Source: a virus. From it: a stretch of DNA of 26,975 bases. The notes beneath the pieces are model-generated. The model ran no database searches. It saw only the letters and a program-made list of their open reading frames with translations, and was not told the origin of the DNA. Positions 1 through 26,975 of the stretch are shown here, piece after piece (position 1 is the first letter of the stretch; every line of letters begins with the position of its first letter). Both the position numbers and the translations under genes were made by a program. The stretch covers positions 1 through 26,975 of the IMG/VR virus record IMGVR_UViG_3300040815_000695; one strand, 5' to 3'.

Positions 1-1
1 C

Positions 2-64
2 ACACTCAGCCAAACCTGTGCAACAGTAGGTGGCTGTTCGGTATCAGTAACACAAGGTAACTAG
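2..64 (+). CDS. Possible 3' end of an upstream gene (partial)
   Basis: The first 64 bases have an open frame from position 2 that ends in TAG at 62-64 and encodes about 20 residues rich in Ser, Thr, Val and Gly. Frame 1 is also open to a TAA at 58-60. Either could be the tail of a gene that starts before the window. The Ser/Thr-rich composition of frame 2 would suit a structural or fibre protein, but the fragment is too short to assign. A strong promoter for the next gene begins at 69, which fits a gene end here. Confidence 0.25.
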   Translation, partial: TLSQTCATVGGCSVSVTQGN

Positions 65-68
65 TCGG

Positions 69-97
69 TTGACAAACTTTTAAATATTTGCTATAAT
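69..97 (+). promoter_or_regulatory. Sigma70-type promoter, consensus match
   Basis: TTGACA at 69-74 and TATAAT at 92-97 are separated by 17 nt, a perfect match to the bacterial housekeeping consensus. The next start codon (ATG 105) lies 8 nt after the -10 box, so the transcript should begin at or next to the start codon and be essentially leaderless. It probably serves early transcription by unmodified host RNA polymerase. Confidence 0.85.
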
Positions 98-104
98 ATT
101 CGTA

Positions 105-272
105 ATGAAACATATGATCAAGTGGCTAAAAATATCAGCCGGTATAAATCTATATCTATCTGTAATACTAACATTAGTATTAATTGCTCTTGTGACTGAT
201 ATTGTGTTAGACACATATTGGCACAGCAACGCATACTTGGAACAATTAGGCATTGGTAGTCCTAATTCATAA
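105..272 (+). CDS. Small single-pass membrane protein (55 aa), unknown
   Basis: ATG at 105 opens a 55-codon frame ending in TAA at 270-272. The product has a short basic N-terminus (MKHMIKWLK), then a hydrophobic segment of about 25 residues (roughly 12-36, rich in Leu, Ile and Val), and a short polar C-terminus. This predicts one transmembrane helix. No Shine-Dalgarno sequence is possible if transcription starts at the consensus promoter immediately upstream, so leaderless initiation is expected. The gene ends 6 nt before the next one, with which it is probably co-transcribed. Small membrane proteins driven by strong early promoters are common in T4-like phages and often modify the host, but no function can be assigned here. 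Confidence 0.6.
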   Translation: MKHMIKWLKISAGINLYLSVILTLVLIALVTDIVLDTYWHSNAYLEQLGIGSPNS

Positions 273-278
273 ACACTT

Positions 279-587
279 ATGGTTACAAAATGGTTAAACA
301 GTCTTAGAATATATTCCCTATCTGTTATAGGTATACACTTTTTAATATTTGCATACTTCTTTCCAGTGTTTGTAATAAAAGTTGTGTTTATACCACTTAC
401 ATTTGTGGTATTTTGGCATTGGTGTGAACTAGTAGTTAGAATAGAAGAAGACAACAGAAATCAAATATTACATTTAATACACACCTCCAATAATCAGCAC
501 ACCAAAGACTTATTGACGTATGAACTATTTTTACACGATGAAAACAGTTTGTCAGGTAAAACTCTGTTTAACAGTTGCGGCATCTAA
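279..587 (+). CDS. Small membrane protein (102 aa), unknown
   Basis: ATG at 279 follows the previous stop by 6 nt. The N-terminal half is strongly hydrophobic, with two likely membrane helices at about residues 10-30 and 31-48 separated by almost no loop. The C-terminal half is polar, contains His, Asn and Asp, and is probably cytoplasmic. The last residues are NSCGI. There is no obvious Shine-Dalgarno sequence, so it may be translated by coupling to the upstream 55-aa gene. I do not recognise the family. The open frame, membrane pattern and operon position support a real gene, but the low-complexity AT-rich sequence leaves some doubt. Confidence 0.55.
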   Translation: MVTKWLNSLRIYSLSVIGIHFLIFAYFFPVFVIKVVFIPLTFVVFWHWCELVVRIEEDNRNQILHLIHTSNNQHTKDLLTYELFLHDENSLSGKTLFNSCGI

Positions 588-593
588 ATTTTA

Positions 594-601
594 GATAAAT
601 A
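594..601 (+). promoter_or_regulatory. T4-late-type promoter for the lipoprotein gene
   Basis: GATAAATA matches the late box seen upstream of structural genes in this window. The expected start is near 607, at the left edge of a palindrome (CTGTTATAATAACAG, 606-620) that would form a 5' hairpin on the mRNA. A clear AAGGAG at 646-651 then serves the ATG at 659. Confidence 0.55.
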
Positions 602-658
602 TATACTGTTATAATAACAGATGGTTTTATAACAATCTTATATATAAGGAGAAAATAA

Positions 659-982
659 ATGAAAGAATTAAAAAACGTGTTCTTTGGTATATTTTTTGTA
701 ATGTTCGCACAAGGTTGCGCCACTGTTGGTGCTATTTCCGATGGCGTACAACAAGGTGTTGCTGGAACAGTTGATGTTGTTCTAGGAACTACAAGCAATG
801 TAGTTACAACAGTAGTAGACGAAGGATCAAGAATCGGACAAGCAGGTGCAGAACTTGTTGTCGGTGTTGGTCAAACTGCTGGAGACTTAGTTGCTGGTAC
901 AGTCGAAACAGTCGCTACAGTTGTTGACGAATCTACTGATGCAGTACAAAAAGAAGAACCAAAAGAAGAACCAAAAAAGTAA
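659..982 (+). CDS. Phage lipoprotein, Gly/Val-rich (107 aa, zero-frame product)
   Basis: The start ATG at 659 has a strong Shine-Dalgarno sequence (AAGGAG, 646-651, 7 nt spacing). Residues 1-20 form a basic-hydrophobic signal peptide ending FAQGC, a slightly degenerate lipobox with Cys20 as the predicted lipidated residue. After cleavage the protein would be tethered to a membrane facing the periplasm. Residues 22-92 are a low-complexity helical region rich in Gly, Val, Thr and Ala, resembling glycine-zipper envelope lipoproteins. The C-terminus is a charged KEEPKEEPKK tail encoded by a 12-bp tandem repeat (949-960 and 961-972). The gene ends at a slippery heptamer directly before TAA, and a -1 shift would add 58 residues (see next entry). 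The family is not recognised. A role at the host envelope is inferred from the lipobox only. Confidence 0.7.
   Translation: MKELKNVFFGIFFVMFAQGCATVGAISDGVQQGVAGTVDVVLGTTSNVVTTVVDEGSRIGQAGAELVVGVGQTAGDLVAGTVETVATVVDESTDAVQKEEPKEEPKK
949..972 (+). repeat. 12-bp tandem repeat (2 copies) before the frameshift site
   Basis: AAAAGAAGAACC occurs twice in tandem at 949-960 and 961-972, encoding KEEPKEEP in the lipoprotein frame. The purine-rich GAAG repeats could also act as weak anti-Shine-Dalgarno pairing sites upstream of the slippery heptamer. Confidence 0.7.
973..979 (+). promoter_or_regulatory. Canonical -1 ribosomal frameshift site A AAA AAG
   Basis: In the reading frame of the lipoprotein gene the last two sense codons are AAA AAG, preceded by A, giving the heptamer A AAA AAG used by Escherichia coli dnaX. 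The UAA stop follows immediately. A 9-bp perfect hairpin lies downstream at 1001-1021. The -1 frame then stays open for 58 codons and ends overlapping the next start codon. An alternative is a one-base sequencing error in the A6 run at 973-978. Confidence 0.65.
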
Positions 983-1155
983 AACGCTCATTCTTTAAAA
1001 TTCCTAAATTTAATTTAGGAAATAAAAAAGAAGACTTACCCTCAGAAGAGGATGAGCAATATTCAGATGAGGAGATACAGGAGTTTATACGCCAGATTAA
1101 GTTATATCAAAAACTAATGGAGTACTGTTCCAAAAATCCAAAAGAATGTGAGTAA
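979..1155 (+). CDS. -1 frame extension of the lipoprotein (58 codons; 165-aa fusion)
   Basis: After a -1 slip on A AAA AAG the ribosome would read GTA at 979 and continue to TAA at 1153-1155. The extension begins VKRSFFKIPKFNLGN, passes through an acidic stretch (about residues 20-33 of the extension), and ends in a helical segment and EYCSKNPKECE. It has no ATG, GTG or TTG that would allow independent translation of more than about 12 residues, so it can only be made in full by frameshifting from the lipoprotein gene. Its stop overlaps the GTG start of the next gene by 8 nt, as expected for a translated, coupled gene end. The fusion protein would have 165 residues. The motif YCxxNPxEC recurs near the N-terminus of the next protein. 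Confidence 0.6.
   Translation, partial: VKRSFFKIPKFNLGNKKEDLPSEEDEQYSDEEIQEFIRQIKLYQKLMEYCSKNPKECE
1001..1021 (+). promoter_or_regulatory. Hairpin downstream of the frameshift site
   Basis: TTCCTAAAT (1001-1009) and ATTTAGGAA (1013-1021) form a perfect 9-bp stem with a 3-nt loop. It starts 21 nt after the slippery heptamer, longer than the usual 5-9 nt spacer for a stimulator. It is not followed by a U run, so it is not a convincing terminator. It lies inside the extended coding frame. Confidence 0.4.
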
Positions 1156-1621
1156 GTTACTTTTAATTTTATTAACACTTCCTCTGTTAGCAATAGCAGA
1201 GGATCGTGTTTTAGACCTTACTTATAATCCCCCACTAGACTACAACTATTGCGATAACAATCCAGTAGAATGTAGACCCCTACCATCACTGATACCAAAA
1301 TTTGAAATACAACAAAAAGCAACGCCAAAGCAATGGGCAGTATTTTGGACATTTCAAGTATTAGATGCTTACTCAACATCACGGGCAGTAAAGTATGATT
1401 GTGTAAAAGAAGTAAATCCACTGTATACAGAACATCCAAGTAACACAAGAATAGTTTTAACAAAAAGTGTATTGCTTCTGCCTGGCTTATTGTATAACGA
1501 TTATTATAAAACTGTGTCACCAGAGGAACTAAACGATACTAATATGTTATATTCTATAGTAGTTGCAAATAACTTTAGGTTACTTAATCAAGCCAAAGAC
1601 AGTTGTAATAAAATAAGATAG
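1148..1621 (+). CDS. Exported protein with signal peptide (157 aa), unknown
   Basis: The start is GTG at 1148, because an ATG at 1146 runs straight into TGA. It overlaps the end of the -1 extension by 8 nt. Residues 1-17 (MSKLLLILLTLPLLAIA) are a textbook Sec signal peptide, with cleavage predicted after Ala17. The mature N-terminal region carries YCDNNPVECRP, a Cys pair that could form a disulfide in the periplasm. The central part (about residues 61-118) contains WTFQVLDAYSTSRAV and a KEVNPL motif followed by a hydrophobic stretch. This is reminiscent of small membrane families of the DUF5658 type, in which an Asp-Thr helix precedes an E-NP motif, but I am not confident of membership. It probably acts in the envelope together with the upstream lipoprotein. 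Confidence 0.65.
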   Translation: MSKLLLILLTLPLLAIAEDRVLDLTYNPPLDYNYCDNNPVECRPLPSLIPKFEIQQKATPKQWAVFWTFQVLDAYSTSRAVKYDCVKEVNPLYTEHPSNTRIVLTKSVLLLPGLLYNDYYKTVSPEELNDTNMLYSIVVANNFRLLNQAKDSCNKIR

Positions 1622-1622
1622 C

Positions 1623-1630
1623 AATAAATA
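1623..1630 (+). promoter_or_regulatory. T4-late-type promoter, leaderless for FNR
   Basis: AATAAATA lies directly after the stop of the exported protein. The FNR start codon GTG begins 6 nt after the last base of the box, where T4 late transcription initiates. The same exact spacing occurs at five other genes in the window. Confidence 0.55.
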
Positions 1631-1635
1631 TATCT

Positions 1636-2376
1636 GTGTTAAAAGAAAAAGTAATAGAAATCAAACACTACTCAGATAGGCTGTTTAGTTTTAAAACCAC
1701 ACGCGATAAAACATTCCGTTTTAAAAATGGTGAATTTGCTATGATTGGTTTAGATGTAGACACAACTGTAAAAGGCAGTCCTCTACCTAAGAAAACAATG
1801 AGAGCATACAGTATTGTAAGCACAAACTATGATGACCATTTAGAGTTTCTAAGTATTATAGTACCAGATGGTCCGCTAACAAGCAAATTAAAGAATTTAC
1901 AAATTGGTGATGAAATATTAATTAATCCAAAAGTCACAGGCAGTTTGGTATGTGATTATTTGACCCCTAAAGATAATTTAGTATTATTAGCAACTGGCAC
2001 TGGAGTAGCACCATTTGTTAGTATTGTCAACGACCCTGATACATACAGCAGATTTAAAAAAGTATATTTGTTTCACACAGTAAGAAATGTAAACGAATTA
2101 GCATACATAGAATCGCTAAATAGTATAGAAGAAGATTTACCTTTTACTTACATACCAACTGTAACTAGAGAAGACTATGGTAGAACTGGTCGCTTTTGGC
2201 AATATGTTGAAGAATTTTTACCAGGTGGCTTCCTCAAAGAAAGAGACGGCATAATGGTGTGCGGTTCTCCAGGTATGAATAAGGAATGTCGTACTTTGTT
2301 TAAAACACTAAATTGGCAAGAAGGTAATACAGGCGAAATGGGCGACTTTATGTTAGAAAGGGCATTTGTAGATTGA
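1636..2376 (+). CDS. Ferredoxin/flavodoxin-NADP+ reductase, bacterial FPR type (246 aa)
   Basis: This FAD enzyme transfers electrons between NADPH and ferredoxin or flavodoxin in the cytoplasm. Residues 57-62 are RAYSIV, the FAD-binding RxYS motif. Residues 78-84 (DGPLTSK) match the FAD pyrophosphate loop. GTGVAPF (121-127) is the NADP-binding glycine loop, and CGSPGM (209-214) is the nicotinamide-side motif. The C-terminus ERAFVD resembles the AFV-type tail of Rhodobacter and Azotobacter FPRs rather than the terminal Trp of Escherichia coli Fpr. Length is normal for the family. The GTG start at 1636 is supported by a late promoter ending exactly 5 nt before it, and conserved sequence begins within the first 10 residues. 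It is followed by a 1-nt overlap (TGATG) with the next gene. It could supply or drain reducing power during infection, but the partner ferredoxin is not in this window. Confidence 0.9.
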   Translation: MLKEKVIEIKHYSDRLFSFKTTRDKTFRFKNGEFAMIGLDVDTTVKGSPLPKKTMRAYSIVSTNYDDHLEFLSIIVPDGPLTSKLKNLQIGDEILINPKVTGSLVCDYLTPKDNLVLLATGTGVAPFVSIVNDPDTYSRFKKVYLFHTVRNVNELAYIESLNSIEEDLPFTYIPTVTREDYGRTGRFWQYVEEFLPGGFLKERDGIMVCGSPGMNKECRTLFKTLNWQEGNTGEMGDFMLERAFVD

Positions 2377-2627
2377 TGGATTCAAACAAAATTATAGATG
2401 CTCTTAGGCAAGGAGTAGTAACAGTAGTATTTGAAAAGATAGACACAAAAGAAATTCGAACTATGCCGTGTACTCTTAATCAAGAAATACATAAACAAAG
2501 TATTGATATAAAAAAATACGATACTACTAGTGATACAATTATTATGTATGCATTAGATAAAAAAGCATGGCGTGATGTAAGAGTCAATACTATCAAAGAA
2601 TGGTACGAAGGATATCCAAAAGAATGA
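2376..2627 (+). CDS. Small WYL_2/DUF2693-like protein (83 aa)
   Basis: ATG at 2376 shares one base with the FNR stop (TGATG). A TTG three bases earlier is less likely. The protein has a run of predicted beta strands: VVTVVFEKIDTKEIRTMPCTL, then a polar turn, then TIIMYALDKKAWRDVRVNTIKEW. This layout, with K-x-x-G-V-V near the start and KKAWRDVRV near the end, matches small phage proteins of the DUF2693/WYL_2 type, which adopt an Sm/SH3-like barrel. Their function is unknown. The stop overlaps the cyclase start as ATGA, so the gene is translationally coupled to it. Confidence 0.65.
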   Translation: MDSNKIIDALRQGVVTVVFEKIDTKEIRTMPCTLNQEIHKQSIDIKKYDTTSDTIIMYALDKKAWRDVRVNTIKEWYEGYPKE

Positions 2628-4489
2628 AATGGGTTTATAGTGGTTATGCTGTAATAGTATCTATATTATTACTTACAGCACTCCAAGTAGTTGATCCTAC
2701 ACCAATACAGAATTTAAGAAATCAAACATTTGATGCATATCAAAAACTAGACGAAATTAAACAAAGCAACGAAGTTGTTATTATTAACATAGGCGAAAAA
2801 AGTCTAGAAACATTAGGGCAGTATCCTTTTCCTAGAACTACATACGCTCAACTCATATATGATATTAGACAAAAGAATCAAGGCATAGTAGGCTTCACTC
2901 TTATGTTTCCTGAAGCAGATAGATTTGGAGGAGACGAAGTTTTTGCTTCATGGATAAAGGGTAACGGAATAGTGTTATCTCAGACACCAAGCACAAGAGG
3001 AATTAAGACCACAGGACCTCATATTGGCACTGGAGTAATCGGTCCTACAACAGCACAGGACTTTCTCCTAACTTGGCCAAATTTAGTAACAAACATACCT
3101 GAACTAGAAGCAGAAGCACTTGGCATAGGCGTAAATGCATCAGCACCACAACCTGATTTTGTTACAAGAACGTATCCATTAGCAATAGGAGTAGAGGGAA
3201 AAATATATCCCTCGTTTGCTATAGAAATGTTACGAGTACAAACAGGCAAACCCAGTTACATGATTAAAACAACAGAGATAGGCATAAACGAATTTGCAGT
3301 TCCGCCTTTTGATCCTATAGTAACATTGCCAAAAGGCGATGCATATATACGTTACAATAATACGTTTGAAGAAGTAGAATATACGGACATAAACAGTTTA
3401 CCTAATATGGGTGGAAAGTTTGTTATAGTAGGTGTTACAGCAGAAGGTATTGCTAACCCTGTACCTACTCCAAGAGGCAACATGTATCCACAGCATATAC
3501 AAGCACACATGCTACAGAACTTTATAGATGGATCAAATATACAGCGGAGCCAGTTATCGTCGCTTATAGAACTTCTGTGTGCGTTGTGTGGTATGATTTT
3601 AATAGCCTTAGCGGTGTATAAGTTACCGTTGCTGTGGACAGCACCGATATCACTGCTAATTTTAGGTGGAGAAGCATATGGTAGTGTGTGGTTATATCAA
3701 AATAAATTACAATTAGTAGATGCAACTTTTCCTGTGTTAAGTGGATTTTTAGTGTTTACACAATCAGCATTTAATAACTTCTATAAACAATACAAATTAC
3801 GTCAACAAATCAAAGGACAGTTTGGTACTTATATATCCCCGGACTATGTTGATATGTTAGTTAAAGATCCTAGTCTAATGAAACTAGGTGGCGAAAGAAA
3901 AGAAATGAGTTTTATGTTTGCTGACATAGTCGGCTTTACACCTATATCAGAAAAGTATATGAAAGCGGATGACCCAGAAGGATTAGTAGAACTCATAAAC
4001 AGTTTCTTAGATAAAATGACCAAAATAGTTTTAAAGAACGGTGGCACAATAGACAAGTTCATGGGTGACTGTATAATGGCATTTTGGAATGCACCACTAC
4101 CATGTGAGAATCATGCTGAGATGGCCGTTAAAACAGCAATAGAGATTGAACTATTAGGTGACGAATTAGAAAAAGAAATGGAAGAACGTGGCTTGCCAAG
4201 AGTAAAATTTGGCACAGGTGTAAACACAGGTACATGTATTGTCGGCAACATGGGTGCTGAAACTAGATTAGATTATAGTGTTGTAGGCGATGCTGTAAAC
4301 TTAGGTGCTAGATTAGAAGCACAAACAAGAGCAGAAGACACACCAATTATTGTTTCTGAATATACTTATATGGAATGCCCTAACATAGCATTTGGTAATA
4401 TAGGAGAAGTTACTGTTAAAGGTAAAGTAGATCCTGTAAAAATGTACGCCCCATTATTTGACGGCGAAATAAGAAAACTTTACAAGTAA
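2624..4489 (+). CDS. CHASE2-domain membrane adenylate cyclase, class III (621 aa)
   Basis: The protein is predicted to make cyclic AMP from ATP. Domain order from the ATG at 2624 is: TM1 (about residues 5-23), a periplasmic CHASE2 sensor (about 25-305), three further TM helices (about 313-332, 336-356 and 364-385), a linker with FGTYISPDYVDML (400-412), and a class III nucleotidyl cyclase domain (about 425-612). All catalytic positions are present: metal-binding Asp434 (FADIVGFT) and Asp482 (MGDCIMAFW), the substrate-selecting pair Lys478 and Asp550, and transition-state Asn559 and Arg563 in GDAVNLGARLE. The Lys/Asp pair favours ATP over GTP. An ATG at 2600 would add 8 residues, but the ATGA overlap with the previous stop favours 2624. 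The family is common in bacteria as environmental sensors. Its presence next to phage neck and tail genes is unusual. The gene ends immediately against a convergent gene. Confidence 0.9.
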   Translation: MKWVYSGYAVIVSILLLTALQVVDPTPIQNLRNQTFDAYQKLDEIKQSNEVVIINIGEKSLETLGQYPFPRTTYAQLIYDIRQKNQGIVGFTLMFPEADRFGGDEVFASWIKGNGIVLSQTPSTRGIKTTGPHIGTGVIGPTTAQDFLLTWPNLVTNIPELEAEALGIGVNASAPQPDFVTRTYPLAIGVEGKIYPSFAIEMLRVQTGKPSYMIKTTEIGINEFAVPPFDPIVTLPKGDAYIRYNNTFEEVEYTDINSLPNMGGKFVIVGVTAEGIANPVPTPRGNMYPQHIQAHMLQNFIDGSNIQRSQLSSLIELLCALCGMILIALAVYKLPLLWTAPISLLILGGEAYGSVWLYQNKLQLVDATFPVLSGFLVFTQSAFNNFYKQYKLRQQIKGQFGTYISPDYVDMLVKDPSLMKLGGERKEMSFMFADIVGFTPISEKYMKADDPEGLVELINSFLDKMTKIVLKNGGTIDKFMGDCIMAFWNAPLPCENHAEMAVKTAIEIELLGDELEKEMEERGLPRVKFGTGVNTGTCIVGNMGAETRLDYSVVGDAVNLGARLEAQTRAEDTPIIVSEYTYMECPNIAFGNIGEVTVKGKVDPVKMYAPLFDGEIRKLYK

Positions 4490-5113
4490 TTATTCGTCTG
4501 GTGACCAGTGTCCCATAGAACGGAACACACTTCTAGCAGTAATAAGATCCTTCTTTAGTTCAACAAGATAAAAAAATTCAAAAGGCTTTTCACCTATTTT
4601 TTCTAATGGATAATGATAGGTTGATGTTATGGTATCTATTGCTGTTATGTCTTTTGCAACACAATTTATAATAGAGTTACGCCACTCGGCATCTTTGAAT
4701 AAATCAAGTACAAAAGCATGTGCTTCACTTTCAGGATTATAACTGTTCATTATATTGAGTAATTCATAATATAATGCTCTGATAGGATTTAAATTATCTC
4801 TGTATTTAGAACTTACAACAGGAAATCTCCACTTGTCTTCTTTGGTACATTGATGCTTATAAAAGTACAAGTATTCTTCCATAAATGATTCATATATGTT
4901 TTTTTGACTTTTACGCATTCTACTTGCTAGTATGCGTCTTAGTTTACTTAATAGTTTTAGGTGATATTCAGATAACGATTCATTATAAACATTAAATAAA
5001 TCATCAGGATTCATACGGCCGTCAATAAATTCGGGCGGTATTTCGTTAGACTTTGCAAACTTTATTAGTAAGTTCTCTAATCTTATCTTTTTAAAATCTA
5101 TTATATCTGACAT
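4490..5113 (-). CDS. Conserved phage protein of unknown function (207 aa)
   Basis: This is the last gene of the minus-strand gp14-gp15-Nudix operon. Its ATG (5113-5111) overlaps the Nudix gene end by 13 nt. The protein is mostly helical and soluble. It opens with MSDIIDFKKIRLENLL, has a basic region around residues 60-75 (KLLSKLRRILASRMRKSQKN), and ends with a mixed segment containing FEFFYLVELKKDLITARSVFRSMGHW. No signal peptide, membrane helix or catalytic motif is visible. I do not recognise the family. Its stop codon abuts the stop of the convergent cyclase gene with no bases between, so no terminator fits between them. Confidence 0.65.
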   Translation of the reverse strand: MSDIIDFKKIRLENLLIKFAKSNEIPPEFIDGRMNPDDLFNVYNESLSEYHLKLLSKLRRILASRMRKSQKNIYESFMEEYLYFYKHQCTKEDKWRFPVVSSKYRDNLNPIRALYYELLNIMNSYNPESEAHAFVLDLFKDAEWRNSIINCVAKDITAIDTITSTYHYPLEKIGEKPFEFFYLVELKKDLITARSVFRSMGHWSPDE

Positions 5114-5616
5114 TTATGTAAATTTAATATAGTATTAAGTTTTTCGTTACCTTTATTGTAACTTAAGGTTGCTCTGGCACCCTCGTGTAATGGCTTTGGC
5201 CATGTACCGATGTCTACCCAAGCATACCCACAACTTTCACCATTTAAATTTGGCATAAATTCGTGTTCTATGACTGCAACAAAACTGTAATACATAAAGT
5301 TCTTGTCTTTGCTTTGATAAACATCAATAGGATTTAGTTTATTAATATCTGGAACTAATCCTAATTCCTCATCAAGTTCACGTGTTAAGGCTTCATATGG
5401 AGACTCGCCTTTTTCAACAAGTCCTCCCCAAAATCCCCAAGTGTGTTTATGTCGTTTGTCGCTGTTTCTGAATTGTAAAAGTACACGGTTGGTATCAAGA
5501 GCAAGAAATAATGTGCCTACCCCTATAACACCTGTGAAAGGTTCTACAGGACTAGAGTCCAATATCCCGGATTGTATTCTCCCTCGTATATGCTCAGCCA
5601 TTGTGTTCCTGTCCAT
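5101..5616 (-). CDS. Nudix hydrolase (171 aa)
   Basis: The Nudix box is complete: G65-x5-E71-x7-R79-E80-L-x-E83-E84-x-G86-L87, giving the helix that binds divalent metal and cleaves nucleoside diphosphate-linked substrates. Upstream is the usual beta strand (GVIGVGTLFLALD), and after the box are the expected strands ending near YAWVDIG. Substrates in the family include damaged dNTPs, ADP-ribose, nucleotide sugars and NADH. GDP-mannose-type hydrolases also share features such as WGFWGG, so the substrate is open. The start lies inside the preceding gp15 gene, with a 73-nt overlap from ATG 5616 or 58 nt from ATG 5601. No Met is available after gp15 ends, so some overlap is required. T4 also encodes a Nudix enzyme (NudE), but in another place. 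Confidence 0.88.
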   Translation of the reverse strand: MDRNTMAEHIRGRIQSGILDSSPVEPFTGVIGVGTLFLALDTNRVLLQFRNSDKRHKHTWGFWGGLVEKGESPYEALTRELDEELGLVPDINKLNPIDVYQSKDKNFMYYSFVAVIEHEFMPNLNGESCGYAWVDIGTWPKPLHEGARATLSYNKGNEKLNTILNLHKCQI

Positions 5617-6905
5617 TTGTATACTTTACTTGTATTTAAGTTCTTCGTAATTGCTGTAGTACCAAAGTTGGCACTTGCATCATATGATACTGTCCACTTT
5701 GCACCATCAAATTCAATAATATCGTTTTCTGATGCATCAACATTCCACTCTGGATAACCTGCTTTGGAAAGATCTTCTGTTATTAAATATCGTTGTCCAA
5801 TTACAAGGTTTGGTATTGTACCATCGCCTGGTACATTACTATGAGGGTTAATAATTTTATCAATATTGCCTATTGTAGAAGCAGGCAATGTGTCAGTATC
5901 CAAATTAAATATAAGTTGACTATCATCTGATGGATGTTTTGCAATAGTACCTGCAATATCCTGTGAGTCATCCTCCATATCATTAGTGATTTTTAATTTT
6001 AAAATACTGGTGTTATCTTTTAATTCCTTGTCATACAATGCTAGTAAATCAGACCAACTCTTAGTCTCTATACCTCCTGAGTCATATAAAGTTGCAGAGT
6101 TGCCCAATATACTAACTTTGTAATTACCTGGCGAAACAATTAAACGTGATTGTATATCAAAACTTCTAAAGAAGTCTGCTATGTCTTCATCATATCCAAT
6201 TTCGCTTAATGATTGTCCACCAAAATCAGTTATTATATTACTGTGAATCTCATGTATAATACTCTGTCTTTTAACTTTTGCAGGAGGATTAATCCATATA
6301 GGCAATATAAATGTTAATGTTGTTACATCAATTTGCTCATCTACTCCTGCCGGAATACTTCTATTAGTAAACTGTATATCTGTTAATTCGACTTCAACAA
6401 TTGAGGTCCAATCAAACGGATTAGAATTTTGTTGTAACTGTATTGTTGGATTAAATAGAACTAATATCTGTTCCATTAATTGTAATTTTGTATCAGTATT
6501 AGGTGTCCATATATCAACTTGCATTGTTAAGTTGTAAGGTACTGGCATATACCTGTTAATAGTATATTGGTTGCCTTGCGTACTTTCATAACTTTGTGTA
6601 TCTTCGTTAAATTTACGCTCTGTTATACTTTTGGTATCTGTAAAGAAAGGATCTTGTGTCCTATCTCTGGCAATTTGTAAACTTTGGATACTCACACCTA
6701 TAAAAGGTGTGCTGTTAATAACATTTTCTGAATTTTGTCTAAGTATATGCGAAACCATTCTACTTGGATCTGCATATCTTATAGGCACAGTATTATATCT
6801 TTCGTCTTCGCCGTCTCTACTACCTTCTTTGACTTTGAATGCATGAAATATTCTAATAAATTGTAGAATATATCTTCTAATTTGTTCATCATACCAGTAC
6901 TGCAT
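5544..6905 (-). CDS. 15: Tail terminator / sheath stabiliser, T4 gp15-like, with C-terminal extension (453 aa)
   Basis: The first 225 residues match T4 gp15 in pattern. They include an opening YWYDEQIRRYILQFIRIFHAF helix, then VPIRYADPSRM (40-50), a long insertion, and PVPYNLTMQVDIWTPNTD (121-138) followed by a LMEQIL-FNP helix (143-153). In T4 gp15 caps the tail tube and sheath and joins them to the neck. T4 gp15 is 272 aa, and the extra 200 residues here form an added beta-rich region with Trp-containing repeats (FDGAKWTVSYD at 399-409, KVYKWTGTQWLSIYEG at 427-442) like those in gp14 and gp18. The gene follows gp14 by 2 nt. Its 3' end overlaps the Nudix gene by at least 58 nt. A TATAAATA box within gp14 could give it an extra late promoter. 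Confidence 0.85.
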   Translation of the reverse strand: MQYWYDEQIRRYILQFIRIFHAFKVKEGSRDGEDERYNTVPIRYADPSRMVSHILRQNSENVINSTPFIGVSIQSLQIARDRTQDPFFTDTKSITERKFNEDTQSYESTQGNQYTINRYMPVPYNLTMQVDIWTPNTDTKLQLMEQILVLFNPTIQLQQNSNPFDWTSIVEVELTDIQFTNRSIPAGVDEQIDVTTLTFILPIWINPPAKVKRQSIIHEIHSNIITDFGGQSLSEIGYDEDIADFFRSFDIQSRLIVSPGNYKVSILGNSATLYDSGGIETKSWSDLLALYDKELKDNTSILKLKITNDMEDDSQDIAGTIAKHPSDDSQLIFNLDTDTLPASTIGNIDKIINPHSNVPGDGTIPNLVIGQRYLITEDLSKAGYPEWNVDASENDIIEFDGAKWTVSYDASANFGTTAITKNLNTSKVYKWTGTQWLSIYEGEYNPGYWTLVL

Positions 6906-6907
6906 AT

Positions 6908-7981
6908 TTAATTGTCCGTCTTAGGTTTAACAACTTTACTTAGGTTTGTTCTTTCATTAGTTACAGTACCATCTGTGTTTGTTGTCTCTGTCGTGTTATT
7001 TATAAAGCCATCAAGGATTCTGTTTGCACTAGAGAACACTCTCTTACTGTCATCTGCAACTTTCACCCAGCGATTACCTGATTTCTTAAATATCCTACTA
7101 GGTGAAAAGTCTGTTCTTAAGAAATAATCACCATCAACTGCGGCTAATGGAAATGTTATTCCACTACCCAATAGTGTAGCACCATTTGGTGCACCTTCAA
7201 CAGTTCCTATAAATGGTTTGCCTTTGGCAGTTTCATCCACAAATAAATGAGTACCTGCGGCATAATAAGGATCCTGTGGAACATTATTTTCTGCTTGTTT
7301 TATAATAGCATCTGAAATATCAATTTCATCTTTGTATGTACTGATGATATTTCGTAAATCGTCTTCTTCATCACCATAGCCAATAATATCTCTGTATTCT
7401 TGACTGTCGCTTATTGGACCTAATTTACATCTCCACATATGAGGCCACCAATTTGGATCAAATCCTTCTGAAGGCCTACTTGCATCTGTAATTACATAAA
7501 ATCTGTTTATGGCATCTTTGCGTTCATCGAGTAATAAATCATCTCTCATATGAGGTAATTCTATAACATCGCCTGCCATAAGTTTTCTGCCTAATGTTGA
7601 TACCATTGTGTCAATGTGAAAATTGATGAACAATGTGTCATTTTGTAAGAACATACCAAATTGTGTTAAATCAAAGTCTGAATCACTTACAGTATATGTT
7701 CCTCTGAGTTCATATATGTCATCATCATACTTTCTGTCTCTATTTTCTAAAAATAATACATCCTGTATGAATGTTTCACCAGTTTTTTGATCGCCGTCTG
7801 AGTCGTAACTGTTATCCTGCTGAGGTTGTGTAAAGTCCTTTGTGTCCCCTTGATCGTGAACACCCAGATATTTGTGTACATTTACCCCAGTACCACCAGC
7901 ATAAATATTCTCCGCTACGATACCGCCGACAAACTTATAGTCGTTTCTTTTGACCGGATTCCATAAACTAATTTTAGGCAT
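6908..7981 (-). CDS. 14: Neck protein, T4 gp14-like (357 aa)
   Basis: The central region is strongly typical of marine gp14 homologues: DVLFLENRDRKYDDDIYELRG (73-93), FGMFLQNDTLFINFHID (108-124), GRKLMAGDVIELPHMRD (131-147) and INRFYVITDASRP (158-170). Gp14 works with gp13 and gp15 to close the packaged head and attach the tail. T4 gp14 is 256 aa, and the extra C-terminal part here carries a segment GDYFLRTDFSPSRIFKKSG with a following Trp305, a module shared with gp15 and gp18. The ATG at 7981 is placed exactly 6 nt after a GATAAATA late box on the minus strand, so a leaderless late mRNA is expected. It heads the inverted four-gene operon. Confidence 0.88.
   Translation of the reverse strand: MPKISLWNPVKRNDYKFVGGIVAENIYAGGTGVNVHKYLGVHDQGDTKDFTQPQQDNSYDSDGDQKTGETFIQDVLFLENRDRKYDDDIYELRGTYTVSDSDFDLTQFGMFLQNDTLFINFHIDTMVSTLGRKLMAGDVIELPHMRDDLLLDERKDAINRFYVITDASRPSEGFDPNWWPHMWRCKLGPISDSQEYRDIIGYGDEEDDLRNIISTYKDEIDISDAIIKQAENNVPQDPYYAAGTHLFVDETAKGKPFIGTVEGAPNGATLLGSGITFPLAAVDGDYFLRTDFSPSRIFKKSGNRWVKVADDSKRVFSSANRILDGFINNTTETTNTDGTVTNERTNLSKVVKPKTDN
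6997..7004 (-). promoter_or_regulatory. Possible internal late promoter for gp15
   Basis: Read on the minus strand, 7004 to 6997 is TATAAATA, the exact T4 late consensus. It lies in the 3' part of gp14, about 92 nt upstream of the gp15 start. It also encodes gp14 residues, so chance occurrence is possible. Confidence 0.35.
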
Positions 7982-7986
7982 AACTG

Positions 7987-7994
7987 TATTTATC
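7987..7994 (-). promoter_or_regulatory. T4-late-type promoter, leaderless for gp14
   Basis: On the minus strand GATAAATA (7994 to 7987) is followed by five bases (CAGTT) and then the gp14 ATG at 7981. This is the same 5-nt gap as at gp13, gp16, gp17, FNR and the 411-aa gene. Confidence 0.7.
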
Positions 7995-7997
7995 AGA

Positions 7998-8026
7998 TTG
8001 ACAACTGATTATTTTTTTGCTATTAT
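7998..8026 (+). promoter_or_regulatory. Sigma70-type promoter, leaderless for the 69-aa gene
   Basis: TTGACA at 7998-8003 and TATTAT at 8021-8026 are spaced by 17 nt. The next ATG (8033) is 7 nt after the -10 box, at the expected transcription start. It stands back to back with the gp14 late promoter, only 3 bp apart. Confidence 0.75.
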
Positions 8027-8032
8027 ACATTC

Positions 8033-8242
8033 ATGGAAATTGCAGAATACATTATATTTGGTATTTGTATTATAGGTGTAGGTTACACTTCGTACAATAT
8101 TGGTCACAAAGACGGCATAGACACAGGCATCAAACTTGGTGCTGGTTTTATGTATGAGAAGTTTTGGTCTTTGGGTAAACCACGTAAAAGAGATCCTCAA
8201 GTAAGATACATTGAAATGACAAAAGACGATATTATTTTATAA
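8033..8242 (+). CDS. Small single-pass membrane protein (69 aa)
   Basis: ATG at 8033 sits at the predicted transcription start of a strong sigma70-type promoter. Residues 4-24 are a hydrophobic helix containing several Gly (YIIFGICIIGVGYTSYNIG), followed by KDGIDTGIKLGAGFMYEKF and a basic C-terminal part. This gives a membrane anchor with a cytoplasmic tail. Similar one-helix proteins with a GxxxG-rich anchor and a short polar tail occur in other T4-like phages near early promoters. No function is known to me. Its 3' end leads into the promoter of the following gene. Confidence 0.6.
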   Translation: MEIAEYIIFGICIIGVGYTSYNIGHKDGIDTGIKLGAGFMYEKFWSLGKPRKRDPQVRYIEMTKDDIIL

Positions 8243-8253
8243 TAAATCTTTAT

Positions 8254-8281
8254 TTGACACCCTTTTTGCCAAAAATATTAT
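8254..8281 (+). promoter_or_regulatory. Sigma70-type promoter for the 387-aa gene
   Basis: TTGACA at 8254-8259 and TATTAT at 8276-8281 are spaced by 16 nt. Start of transcription is expected near 8288, giving a leader of about 24 nt before ATG 8312. No clear Shine-Dalgarno sequence is seen in that leader. Confidence 0.65.
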
Positions 8282-8311
8282 ATATAGTTTTAAAATTGAG
8301 TAATTATTGGT

Positions 8312-9475
8312 ATGGCTAGAAAGAAAACACAGAGATCTATATATGTTACAACAGAGCCTGATTGGAAGACTCTTAAACTTGTAACGGATAAAGAAGAACA
8401 GGTAAAAGCATTTCGCAGTTGCGAATATTTTGCCAGGACAGAGGTTAGTAAAACTAAAGGACTGCCTATTGTAAAAGATTGGCTTAAAAACCACACAGGA
8501 TGGACGCCAGAAGAAGTAAAGATTATTTTAGCAAATCCAGATTGGACATTTAGTTCATGCATTAGCACAATTTTTGTTTGGCACAAATTAGGTTATATGC
8601 CAGACCATTTAAGAGAACACTACGAAAAACGTAAAAACGAAGAGTGGTTACCACGTGGCAAAAAGGCTTTAGAAGAAAAGGTTGAAAAAATTGAGCAAAA
8701 ATTAGCAAAGCCTGTAATCAGCATTCAAGAACGAATGAAAGAACAAGTAAGTGATTTATGCGGTAATATCGAAGGCTTCTTAGACGAGATGGTTGACGGT
8801 TCTAAAACAATTAAAGATTTTGATCCTTATAAAATGATGATGTCATATCAAACTGAAATTAAAGGTCCACATGCTAAAATTATAAAAGAAGAATTTGCGG
8901 CTCAACATGCCGAAGCACTAGAAGTATTAGAATGGAAGGACGAAGAACTAAAAGAAGCATACAGCCACTTCGATGCTAAAATGCGTAAAGCCTTCGTACA
9001 GTACTACGAAACGATTAATACTGCTTGTGATACTATCATAGCAACAAAAGCCACTACACGCAAGGCTCGTAAGCCTAAGGCACGGTCTAAAGAGGCTATC
9101 GTGAAGAAATTAAAGTATGCAGTAAACTTTCCTGAACTAGGACTAGCAAGTTTGCACCCAACAGACATTGTGTACGCAAATGAAGTTTGGATATACAACA
9201 CTAAAACTAGAAAAATAGGTGTATATCGTGCAAAAAACATTGACCCTAAGAACATGCAAAGACCTGGTACAGGCATTATGGTAAAAGGAACAACATTACA
9301 AGACTATGACGAAGATACCAGCATACAAAAAACTTTGAGAAAACCAGCAGAAATGATTAAAGGATTTGATGCAGGCAAAATGAAATGCAAAAAATCATTT
9401 GAAGAACTTACTACAACCCCTACTAAAATGAACGGTAGATTTAATGAGCACACAATCATACTAAGAACTTTTTGA
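8312..9475 (+). CDS. Conserved phage protein of unknown function (387 aa)
   Basis: The protein is soluble and highly charged. Residues 1-100 hold an N-terminal domain with several Trp (DWKTLKL, DWLKNHTGWTPEE, NPDWTFSS, VWHKLGYMP). Residues 105-250 are predicted long helices, probably coiled coil (KALEEKVEKIEQKLAKP and on). A basic patch TTRKARKPKARSKEAIVKKLKY lies at about 248-269, which could contact nucleic acid. The C-terminal part is beta-rich (VWIYNTKTRKIGVYRAK). I do not recognise a family, but such proteins occur next to neck genes in marine T4-like phages. The sigma70-type promoter suggests early or middle expression, so it need not be structural. Its stop TGA overlaps the late promoter of gp13. 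Confidence 0.65.
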   Translation: MARKKTQRSIYVTTEPDWKTLKLVTDKEEQVKAFRSCEYFARTEVSKTKGLPIVKDWLKNHTGWTPEEVKIILANPDWTFSSCISTIFVWHKLGYMPDHLREHYEKRKNEEWLPRGKKALEEKVEKIEQKLAKPVISIQERMKEQVSDLCGNIEGFLDEMVDGSKTIKDFDPYKMMMSYQTEIKGPHAKIIKEEFAAQHAEALEVLEWKDEELKEAYSHFDAKMRKAFVQYYETINTACDTIIATKATTRKARKPKARSKEAIVKKLKYAVNFPELGLASLHPTDIVYANEVWIYNTKTRKIGVYRAKNIDPKNMQRPGTGIMVKGTTLQDYDEDTSIQKTLRKPAEMIKGFDAGKMKCKKSFEELTTTPTKMNGRFNEHTIILRTF

Positions 9476-16170: not shown

Positions 16171-16611
16171 ATGGCAAAATACGCCAAAGGCACATTCGAA
16201 CCACAAAACCCAAATAAGTATGCAGGTGCAAAATCTCCTTACTATCGTAGCAGTTGGGAATTAGCATTTATGAACATGTGTGATAGCCATCCAAACATTA
16301 CACAATGGGCAAGTGAAAATATCAAAATACCATATAGACACCCTGTGACAGGTAAGCACACAGTTTATGTGCCTGACTTCACAGTAATTTACACTGATAA
16401 AAATGGCAAGAATCATATGGAAGTAATTGAGATCAAACCTGGCAGTCAAAGTACAATGGAAAGTGCAAGAAGTAGTGCAGAAAAAATACAAGTTGCTATT
16501 AATTTAGCAAAATGGACAGCCGCAAATGAATGGTGTCAACGCAAAGGTGTACGTTTTAGAGTGTTGAATGAGAATCACATATACATGAACACCAAGAAGA
16601 GAAAGAACTAA
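16171..16611 (+). CDS. 4: Head completion protein, T4 gp4/gp50-like PD-(D/E)xK nuclease fold (146 aa)
   Basis: Length matches T4 gp4 (150 aa). The sequence carries the markers of a TnsA-like PD-(D/E)xK fold: Glu30 in YRSSWE, Pro68-Asp69 in YVPDF, and Glu87-Ile-Lys89 in EVIEIKPG. In T4, gp4 is needed to finish packaged heads so that tails can attach, and the nuclease-like residues suggest it trims DNA ends. It starts one base after the previous stop and ends at a TAA that forms part of the late promoter for gp16. It lies in the packaging block upstream of gp16 and gp17. Confidence 0.85.
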   Translation: MAKYAKGTFEPQNPNKYAGAKSPYYRSSWELAFMNMCDSHPNITQWASENIKIPYRHPVTGKHTVYVPDFTVIYTDKNGKNHMEVIEIKPGSQSTMESARSSAEKIQVAINLAKWTAANEWCQRKGVRFRVLNENHIYMNTKKRKN

Positions 16612-25775: not shown

Positions 25776-25803
25776 TTGACATCACACACATTTAATGTAT
25801 AAT
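25776..25803 (+). promoter_or_regulatory. Sigma70-type promoter, leaderless for uvsW
   Basis: TTGACA at 25776-25781 and TATAAT at 25798-25803 are separated by 16 nt. The uvsW ATG (25811) is 8 nt after the -10 box, so the mRNA would begin at or next to the start codon. The -35 box starts 7 bases after the preceding stop. Confidence 0.75.
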
Positions 25804-25810
25804 AAACTTT

Positions 25811-26975
25811 ATGGCTAGACAAACAAGATTAGAAATAAGAGACGAAGTAAACATTAAGTTTCACGACTTAGATGTAGCCACACGCAGAAAACTTTCTGAT
25901 ACTTGCAAATACTTTTTACCATATGCATATCATATGCCGGCTTACAAGTTAGGTCGTTGGGACGGCTTTATGAGATTTTGTGATGTCGGTGGTAGGAGTT
26001 ATTTGAATTTATTAGACCAACTTATTCCAGTAGTAACTAGTTTGGGTTACGAAGTAGTGTTAGATGACAAAAGAGAAAAATGGGATTTTGAGTTTGAGGA
26101 AGTAAAACAAGACACATATGAAGAGTTTAGTTGGCCTAAGAAACATCCTGCAGAAGGTTTGCCTATTATACTTAGAGATTATCAAGTAGAAATAATTAAC
26201 AAGTTTTTAGCAAACCCACAATGCATACAAGAGATTGCCACAGGTGCTGGTAAAACTCTAGTAACGGCCGCACTTAGTCACCAATGTGAGAAGTACGGTA
26301 GAACAATAGTGATAGTGCCTAATAAGGACCTTGTAACGCAAACAGAAGCGGACTACAAGCATTTAGGACTTGATGTTGGTGTTTTCTACGGGGACAGAAA
26401 AGAATACAATAAAACGCACACAATTTGCACTTGGCAAAGTTTAGAAATACTACACAAAAAATCTAAAGCCAAGGAAGCAGTAGACTTTGATATCAGTGAA
26501 TTTATTGATGGTGTAGTGTGCATAATGATTGACGAAGTACACAAAGCAAAAGCAGATATTTTAAAACAATTATTAAGTAGTGTATTTTCTAATGTTCCTA
26601 TTCGCTGGGGACTAACAGGTACAATACCAAAAGACCAACACGAAGCAGTTGCAATGACTAGCACTATAGGACCTGTAATAGGACAATTAAGTGCAAAAGA
26701 ATTACAAGACAAAGGCGTACTATCTAACTTAGAAGTAAATGTATTACAGTTAGTAGACACTCATGTAGGATTTAGTAACTATGCACAAGAACTAAAATGG
26801 ATAACAACTAATCCTGAAAGAATAAAATTCATAAGTCAACTTATCAATGGCATGACTGATAACGGTAATACCTTAATACTAGTAGACCGAATAAAAACAG
26901 GCGAATTACTTATAGAACAAAACCCAGACTGGGTATTTGTAAGTGGTGGAATGAAAGCATCAGAAAGAAAAGAAA
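25811..26975 (+). CDS. uvsW: RNA-DNA and branch-migration helicase UvsW (partial, C-terminus beyond window)
   Basis: The frame is open from ATG 25811 to the window end (388 codons). UvsW is an SF2 helicase that unwinds R-loops, promotes branch migration and remodels stalled forks in T4. The N-terminal part (about 1-115) contains KLGRWDGFMRF (46-56), the small nucleic-acid-binding domain seen in UvsW. ILRDYQVEIINKFL (120-133) is the Q-like motif, Walker A is ATGAGKT (143-149), VIVPNKDLVTQ is motif Ia, Walker B is DEVH (241-244), and WGLTGTIP is motif III. It has its own leaderless sigma70-type promoter. T4 UvsW is about 500 aa, so some 110 residues are probably missing beyond the window. Confidence 0.93.
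   Translation, partial: MARQTRLEIRDEVNIKFHDLDVATRRKLSDTCKYFLPYAYHMPAYKLGRWDGFMRFCDVGGRSYLNLLDQLIPVVTSLGYEVVLDDKREKWDFEFEEVKQDTYEEFSWPKKHPAEGLPIILRDYQVEIINKFLANPQCIQEIATGAGKTLVTAALSHQCEKYGRTIVIVPNKDLVTQTEADYKHLGLDVGVFYGDRKEYNKTHTICTWQSLEILHKKSKAKEAVDFDISEFIDGVVCIMIDEVHKAKADILKQLLSSVFSNVPIRWGLTGTIPKDQHEAVAMTSTIGPVIGQLSAKELQDKGVLSNLEVNVLQLVDTHVGFSNYAQELKWITTNPERIKFISQLINGMTDNGNTLILVDRIKTGELLIEQNPDWVFVSGGMKASERKE

Follow-up and report, generated by a model that had tools for sequence, protein, structure and literature searches.

The IMG/VR virus record IMGVR_UViG_3300040815_000695 (positions 1–26,975; this whole stretch of 26,975 nucleotides is referred to here as the window) carries on its plus strand a gene at 2624–4489 that, judged from profile matches and a predicted structure, encodes a CHASE2 receptor joined to an adenylate cyclase domain of class III. 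The 621-residue protein matches the Pfam families CHASE2 (PF05226; 2.7e-36, 125.9 bits against a cut-off of 26.3) and Guanylate_cyc (PF00211; 3.3e-19), both above the curated cut-offs, as well as PHROG 35576 (7.9e-174). The longest open frame begins at 2600, but a start at 2624 is likelier because relatives have a common M/V-K-W start; apart from the longer L019-type frames, those of L010–L018 open about one codon before it. Across eight codon-pair comparisons the ratio of nonsynonymous to synonymous substitution (dN/dS) is 0.04–0.11 in the catalytic domain and 0.06–0.28 in the sensor, and the catalytic-domain values rule out a pseudogene.

The AlphaFold model of the full protein has a mean predicted local distance difference test (pLDDT) score of 89.2 (94 aligned sequences). 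In this prediction, one transmembrane (TM) helix, an extracytoplasmic domain and three further TM helices succeed one another, which is the layout of a CHASE2 receptor. TM helix 1 spans residues 7–23 (2642–2692) and precedes the putatively extracytoplasmic CHASE2 sensor (residues 26–302; 2699–3529), covered by the full model (pLDDT 89) and by a model of the domain alone (pLDDT 92.4). Predicted TM helices 2–4 (residues 312–333, 336–361, and 368–401; 3557–3826) come next, the last of them extending onward as a connector helix, and the class III catalytic domain occupies residues 422–610 (3887–4453). A hydropathy scan flags only residues 1–29 and 309–348 as membrane segments at its threshold. The modeled catalytic domain matches Pseudomonas aeruginosa CyaB (3r5g) with a Z-score of 27.1 and a root-mean-square deviation of 1.8 over 188 residues, and CyaC with a Z-score of 25.4. 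CyaB and Arthrospira/Spirulina CyaC (1wc0/1wc1) thus provide solved examples of the same fold with Lys and Ser/Thr at the base-selecting sites, although these PDB entries comprise catalytic domains only, without CHASE2. For the CHASE2 model used as a query, the best solved fold gave a Z-score of 3.8, and Foldseek returned none with E ≤0.001.

Active-site conservation was counted over full-length, non-identical rows from 52 phage sequences (window included) and 78 of 80 bacterial sequences. Asp434 (3923–3925) and Asp482 (4067–4069), which we take to be the first and second metal-binding aspartates, and the base-selecting Lys478 (4055–4057) are invariant across the 52 phage and 78 bacterial rows. 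Arg563 (4310–4312), presumably a transition-state residue together with Asn559 (4298–4300), is found in 52/52 and 78/78 rows, and Asn559 itself in 49/52 and 78/78. Ser552 (4277–4279), at the second base-selecting position, is Ser or Thr in 49 of the phage rows and in every bacterial one. Since the bacterial rows were selected by catalytic-motif patterns that hold D434 or K478/D482, only N559, R563, and position 552 constitute a free test among bacteria. An earlier note on this DNA had proposed the start at 2624, the CHASE2 and cyclase families, the four membrane helices around a large extracytoplasmic region, and intact D434, K478, D482, N559, and R563; the profile searches, the predicted model and the row alignment agree with it on each of these points. 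Its listing of Asp550 was a misassignment, as this is not the substrate-selecting residue: the Thr found in CyaC and in P. aeruginosa CyaB aligns with Ser552, and position 550 is Asp in just 48 of the 78 bacterial rows.

Lys combined with Ser/Thr at the base-selecting positions is, we assume, the class IIIb adenylate cyclase arrangement, and the pair K478 and S552 conforms by sequence to this rule for ATP specificity. The structure titled guanylyl cyclase Cya2 (2w01) has Glu at the site where the window has K478. Because the Lys is kept, ATP appears the more likely substrate, and the phage receptor probably makes cyclic AMP (cAMP).

Gene order around the cyclase

The window begins inside a neighboring gene. 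Positions 2–64 (plus strand) hold the last 20 codons and the stop of a curlin-repeat protein, cut at the contig's left end and identical to the end of the open reading frame (ORF) at 6623–7465 of contig L006. This contig overlaps the window by 7,883 nucleotides with one mismatch and extends leftward through two 98-residue ORFs, csgF, csgG, a curlin-repeat protein, FecR, and the second curlin-like protein. Pfam supports CsgF, CsgG, and FecR in L006, and the curlins are named from their similarity to annotated phage curlin proteins. The order csgF, csgG, curlin, and FecR upstream of a cyclase matches the module described in PMC9599517. According to that paper, pelagiphages of both podovirus and myovirus type have curli clusters that contain FecR and an adenylate cyclase, placed closest to alphaproteobacterial versions. 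It also places a histidine kinase gene ahead of csgF in podovirus clusters. The tandem 98-residue ORFs of L006 (2558–2854 and 2854–3150), which belong to PHROG 18771, of unknown function, and have homologs ahead of csgF in the phages HTVC008M and Melnitz as well, may be what was called histidine kinases there.

Gene order was surveyed in 82 phage loci, with the best 80 of 401 IMG/VR relatives of the cyclase in use; locus, layout, and catalytic-type counts include near-duplicates such as L069–L071, L073/L074, and L046/L047. Seventeen loci have at least 5 kb of upstream sequence; the query proteins came from three of them (L006, HTVC008M, and Melnitz), and some others are near-duplicates. FecR and curlin hits lie upstream of the cyclase in 17/17, csgG in 12/17, and csgF in 11/17, whereas a ferredoxin-NADP reductase-like flavoprotein (FNR) lies within 2 kb in 5/17 and a WYL_2 protein adjoins in 4/17. 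When the upstream threshold is lowered to 3.5 kb, 24 of 25 loci have a curli or FecR hit, the exception being L076. Profile searches covered 45 of 83 phage records, hand-chosen and mainly the longer ones; many of these are nonetheless short, and CsgG was found in 15 and FecR in 19, 17 of them above the cut-off. On this evidence, the cyclase stands at the far end of a mobile module of phages, csgF-csgG-curlin-FecR-curlin-...-cyclase. Its conserved partner is this curli-FecR module (17/17 loci) and not FNR (5/17), which we reject as a conserved functional partner and keep as lineage cargo.

Two isolates, from the pelagiphages and methylophages, share the arrangement. HTVC008M (AGE60353.1) and Melnitz (QZI94833.1) both carry a CHASE2 cyclase downstream of csgF-csgG-curlin-FecR-curlin, and the window protein is 42% identical to the former and 33% to the latter. 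HTVC023P-type phages have a cyclase in a curli (type VIII secretion system) cluster and are likened to the window from the description in PMC9599517 alone. PMC7029224 describes the curli operon of pelagimyophages, and PMC9004378, from which the word cyclase is absent, discusses Melnitz CsgG as a lysis-control pore. A cyclase in a phage curli cluster is therefore already in print, in PMC9599517, and annotated in HTVC008M and Melnitz; the words CHASE2 and jumbo do not occur in the main text of PMC9599517.

The 33 loci with an upstream curlin hit fall into two layouts. In the coupled layout (8/33, HTVC008M and Melnitz among them) the cyclase ATG lies 1–21 nucleotides past the curlin stop; in the split layout (25/33, including the window) 0.5–7.3 kb of other genes separate the two. 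Five nucleotides past the curlin stop, at 69–97 (plus strand), the window has a sigma70-type promoter, TTGACA-17-TATAAT with an extended TG, that matches at 12/12 positions. The window has two such perfect sites, where 40 single-base shuffles predict 0.05, and nine sites of at least 11/12, where they predict 1.7, although a looser scan of 1–8400 gave no excess (41 against 40.7 expected). In 15/25 split loci, a sigma70-type site that matches at 11 or more of 12 positions lies no farther than 32 nucleotides from the curlin stop. The coupled loci were searched from 60 nucleotides before the curlin stop up to the ATG, and the lack of a promoter in these eight means little because the gap of 1–21 nucleotides is too small for one. 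T4-type late promoters were considered and rejected, with TATAAATA seen once against 4.4 expected.

The promoter at 69–97 is the probable start, by its match and position, of a cargo operon that ends in the cyclase. All genes of the operon lie on the plus strand. Three of them are recurrent cargo, encoding proteins of 102 residues (279–587, placed between curlin and cyclase by the ORF list and the gene order of relatives), 107 residues with a lipoprotein-like N-terminus by eye (659–982), and 157 residues with a hydrophobic N-terminus (1148–1621). They are followed by FNR, a variable partner (1636–2376; Pfam NAD_binding_1, 5.5e-12), and by an 84-residue WYL_2 protein of the Sm-like barrel type (2373–2627; Pfam WYL_2, 2e-7). 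The WYL_2 ORF overlaps FNR and the cyclase by 4 nucleotides each, its stop and the cyclase start forming the sequence ATGA. Given these overlaps, FNR, WYL_2, and cyclase are likely co-transcribed from the promoter at 69–97. A convergent phage ORF of 207 residues (4490–5113, minus strand) closes the operon, with NUDIX and tail-sheath-stabilizer genes next.

The ORF coordinates thus confirm the ATGA coupling to a WYL_2-like gene described in the earlier note, and Pfam, fold, and synteny confirm its claim that the phage encodes a CHASE2 receptor cyclase within an operon of its own. It had also suggested a search for the same operon in related marine phages. A shared gene set does recur, but the conserved set is curli-FecR and not FNR/WYL_2, and the emphasis on FNR and redox control does not hold up against the counts given above. 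The curli-FecR module escaped that reader because the window contig ends inside it.

Exchange of sensor and catalytic parts

Separate trees of the sensor and the catalytic domain were built from 36 phage and 50 bacterial rows left after redundancy cuts, by a quick method that yields one support value and carries a long-branch warning. Elsewhere, 16 of 112 rows were removed by hand from the structure alignment and 3 of 84 from that of CHASE2. All 36 phage sensors form one clade with a support of 100, shared by the window, HTVC008M, and Melnitz; within it, the two isolates are sisters and a separate 31-row clade holds the window. The catalytic-domain tree instead shows three groups: type A (the window, assigned by best match, HTVC008M, and others), type B (L057 and others), and type C (Melnitz, L069, and L073). 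The 77 proteins with a window-type sensor, a count that includes the window and truncated copies, comprise 59 of type A, 13 of type B, and 5 of type C. Melnitz and the window accordingly differ in catalytic type, C against A.

Pairwise identities locate the change. The CHASE2 part of L069 agrees with that of the window at 77% of residues and with that of Melnitz at 31%, but for its catalytic domain the figures are 34% and 84%, respectively. Between L055 and L059, identity falls from 89% in CHASE2 to 49% in the catalytic domain, with a drop near residue 400 that the DNA profile shows too. By sequence comparison, then, there is recombination among phage genes near the sensor-catalytic junction. 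A version in which the sensor is kept and the catalytic part alone is swapped is contradicted by L043 (4953–6836) and L020, 99% identical in the catalytic domain and 66% in CHASE2; from this pair, it seems that the sensor can be the exchanged part too. The phage catalytic domains lie on one side of a branch with a support of 90 (four long bacterial rows left out). We therefore claim exchange between phages only; separate bacterial origins of types A, B, and C are not supported. These comparisons show phages recombining receptor cyclases close to the point where sensor and output meet.

The types also differ in detail. Type C proteins (L069, 2652–4706; L073, 10013–12067; L083, 13016–15064) have Ser at the N559 position and Asp at 552, and Ser at the N559 position occurs in 0/78 bacterial rows; with these two replacements, the catalytic activity of type C may be altered. 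A C-terminal extension of some 60–70 residues, ending W-(D/N)-G...K, sets types B and C apart from type A, which lacks it (carriers are L057, L059–L067, L069–L071, L073, L074, and L083). The bacterial cyclase consensus likewise ends W-x-G...K.

Bacterial relatives and a proposed signaling route

Bacterial counterparts were collected by scanning a genome collection with two catalytic-motif patterns, so that closer or FecR-richer relatives may exist beyond the matches listed. The best 80 cyclase loci among these matches are mainly from Alphaproteobacteria and have 27–36% identity in the best segment. They share the domain order and the catalytic residues of the window protein, yet reach at most 35–36% identity among the matches listed and are found without curli genes. 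A FecR-like ORF is present in 27/80 (profile from 22 phage FecR sequences, without a random-gene baseline), in 16 of those 27 within 200 nucleotides of the cyclase ORF or overlapping it, and all five bacterial FecR-like ORFs checked match Pfam FecR above the cut-off. FecR beside bacterial CHASE2 cyclases can also sit in big adhesin-like proteins with cadherin/Ig repeats (L089, 3338–7891; L095, 1–2239), which again links FecR-CHASE2 to surface structures.

Curli genes follow a different distribution. Single phage CsgG and CsgF sequences detect bacterial ones, and curlin queries match in 1/3 bacterial curli loci. Among 241 genomes of the class of Terasakiella brassicae (L086), four matched CsgF, three of them above the cut-off; in these three curli loci, a small sample, neither a cyclase nor FecR is hit in the surrounding 9 kb or so, and 0/16 genomes with a CHASE2 cyclase, likewise a small sample, have CsgF. 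FecR-CHASE2 is thus a bacterial pair and curli a separate bacterial operon, and on these small samples the combination looks phage-made.

Published systems offer partial parallels. FecR adjoins CHASE2 histidine kinases in bacteria, including the BiofilmReg-type operons and their P. aeruginosa PAO1 counterpart, whose output is a histidine kinase where that of the window is a cyclase (PMC5192318), and a CHASE2 cyclase-FecR cluster occurs in Campylobacterota (PMC9239204). The Sinorhizobium meliloti proteins CyaD1, CyaD2, and CyaK are bacterial CHASE2 adenylate cyclases, likened to ours by description only, that respond to a plant protein via the outer-membrane β-barrel NsrA, with Clr, a regulator of the CRP family, mediating their effect (PMC13001267). 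By analogy, NsrA may serve as a precedent for outer-membrane input to CHASE2 cyclases.

Taken together, we propose the following route, to which as a whole we assign a probability of about 55%. CsgG/CsgF and the curlin proteins would be assembled in the host envelope. The FecR-domain protein, whose start resembles a signal peptide by eye, would sense the state of the curli in the periplasm and touch the CHASE2 domain. From there, we infer that control runs inward, through TM helices 2–4 and the connector helix to a cyclase dimer that would convert ATP to cAMP, provided that the topology in the cell is as modeled. cAMP would then work via an assumed host receptor, since the cNMP_binding domain (PF00027) is absent from the 45 phage records searched, including those of 250, 147, and 141 kb; a literature search on cAMP receptors of SAR11 hosts gave nothing usable. 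The split layout with its host-type sigma70 promoter would allow the receptor to be made apart from the curli, perhaps early. The computation supports the domains and active-site residues, the low dN/dS, the synteny, the match to a promoter, and the exchange of modules, and the first half of this reading, namely that the curli-FecR module includes a working CHASE2 adenylate cyclase, deserves far more confidence than the whole. More tentative, and in our view rather doubtful, is the further idea of a phage-assembled trans-envelope line in which a phage curli pore and fibre, a FecR reader, and a CHASE2 receptor act in series while sensor and catalytic modules reassort. Such a line is seen in no bacterium here, given 0/80 cyclase loci with curli and 0/3 curli loci with a cyclase.

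Several observations weigh against the FecR-curli route. The window itself holds just 20 codons of the curli-FecR module, and in L006 the first curlin falls below the Curlin_rpt cut-off while the second is without a Pfam match. A terminator-like hairpin at 1180–1203 sits between the promoter at 69–97 and FNR, and 10/25 split loci are without a strong promoter within 100 nucleotides past the curlin stop. Most of the 45 of 83 phage records covered by the PF00027 search are fragments. In bacteria, FecR is missing from the DNA retrieved for 53/80 cyclase loci, some of which are cut short, and phage CsgG, CsgF, and curlin profiles find no curli gene in any of the 80; curli as an input is seen only in phages.

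Other explanations were weighed against the same evidence. The cyclase could be a stand-alone environmental sensor that works with FNR and WYL_2 to alter host redox or carbon regulation via cAMP, as the tight overlap of the three genes behind a common candidate promoter and the presence of FNR within 2 kb in 25/45 loci with at least 2 kb upstream would suggest. We consider this unlikely, since over at least 5 kb FNR and WYL_2 accompany the cyclase in a minority of loci and FecR/curlin in every one, and since an FNR homolog turns up elsewhere, downstream of structural genes, in L032, L034–L036, L039–L041, L045, L058, and L079. A lysis or envelope-state timer, in which the receptor reports opening of the CsgG pore or envelope damage and cAMP times late events, seems about equally improbable: csgF, csgG, curlin, and FecR are all envelope-directed neighbors and a pinholin-like idea for phage CsgG already appears in PMC9004378, but no lysis gene is recognized adjoining the cyclase and the host-type promoter points to early rather than late expression.

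The catalytic domain matches nine PADLOC PycC models (best 1.9e-22), which raises the prospect of another cyclic nucleotide (cGMP, or cCMP/cUMP as in Pycsar) or of a defense role such as misleading a host cyclic-nucleotide defense. This is more improbable still. The base-selecting Lys is kept throughout the phage rows, and none of the three neighbors scanned (FNR, WYL_2, and the L006 FecR) matches any PADLOC model. In both sequence and fold, the adenylate cyclases CyaB and CyaC are among the nearest solved structures, with the guanylyl cyclase Cya2 close too; the link to Pycsar is one of similarity only. Bacterial contamination or a chimera would account for nearest cellular homologs, among the matches listed, that are mainly alphaproteobacterial. 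It is ruled out to our satisfaction by seven other IMG/VR contigs that match the cyclase protein at 100% (rounded) identity, by the same phage structural genes flanking it on many contigs, by homologs in isolate genomes, and by a best cellular identity of 35–36% among those matches, in keeping with the phage origin given in the earlier note.

If the FecR-curli route is correct, phages would gain control, from outside inward, of a second messenger that acts throughout the host, through an envelope structure of their own making, and a virus may wire its own envelope machinery to host signaling. Under the more tentative trans-envelope reading, one outer signal could be coupled to cyclases that differ in behavior (types A, B, and C) from host to host. 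The FecR-CHASE2 pairing is a concrete candidate for the input of CHASE2 receptors generally, and the isolates HTVC008M and Melnitz make the idea of a phage receptor cyclase testable now.

The phage and other features of the window

At 59% identity, the large terminase resembles those of the PA5oct group of Pseudomonas jumbo phages, and a 30-kb PA5oct stretch contains homologs, in the same order, of 12 of 26 window proteins. On this basis, the window is a fragment of a jumbo myovirus, probably marine, related to the PA5oct group. The same two lines of evidence speak against close kinship with HTVC008M; in the genome parts compared (HTVC008M, 26.8 kb; Melnitz, 27.8 kb), matches are limited to the cyclase and one further protein. 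A megablast search of window positions 1–25000 against a phage collection gave no match, and no PA5oct record is among the nine records that match the cyclase. The window thus differs from HTVC008M and Melnitz in its jumbo, PA5oct-like phage and in the cargo genes and promoter between curlin and cyclase. In a search of the open-access literature, no paper on curli and CsgG in a jumbo phage came up. As far as that literature was searched, four points are new: the cyclase in a jumbo lineage, its split layout, the use of the FecR-CHASE2 pairing to point to the input, and the reassorting modules.

An Rfam search of the window gave no match. The NUDIX ORF (5101–5616) and the tail-sheath-stabilizer ORF (5544–6905), both on the minus strand, share a same-strand overlap of 73 nucleotides that recurs in relatives, L002 and L003 among them. 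At 16171–16611 (plus strand), the window encodes a TnsA-like endonuclease domain (Pfam 7.6e-21) whose match in HTVC008M is annotated as a head completion protein. The second perfect sigma70-type promoter lies at 25776–25803 (plus strand), just ahead of a helicase ORF at 25811.

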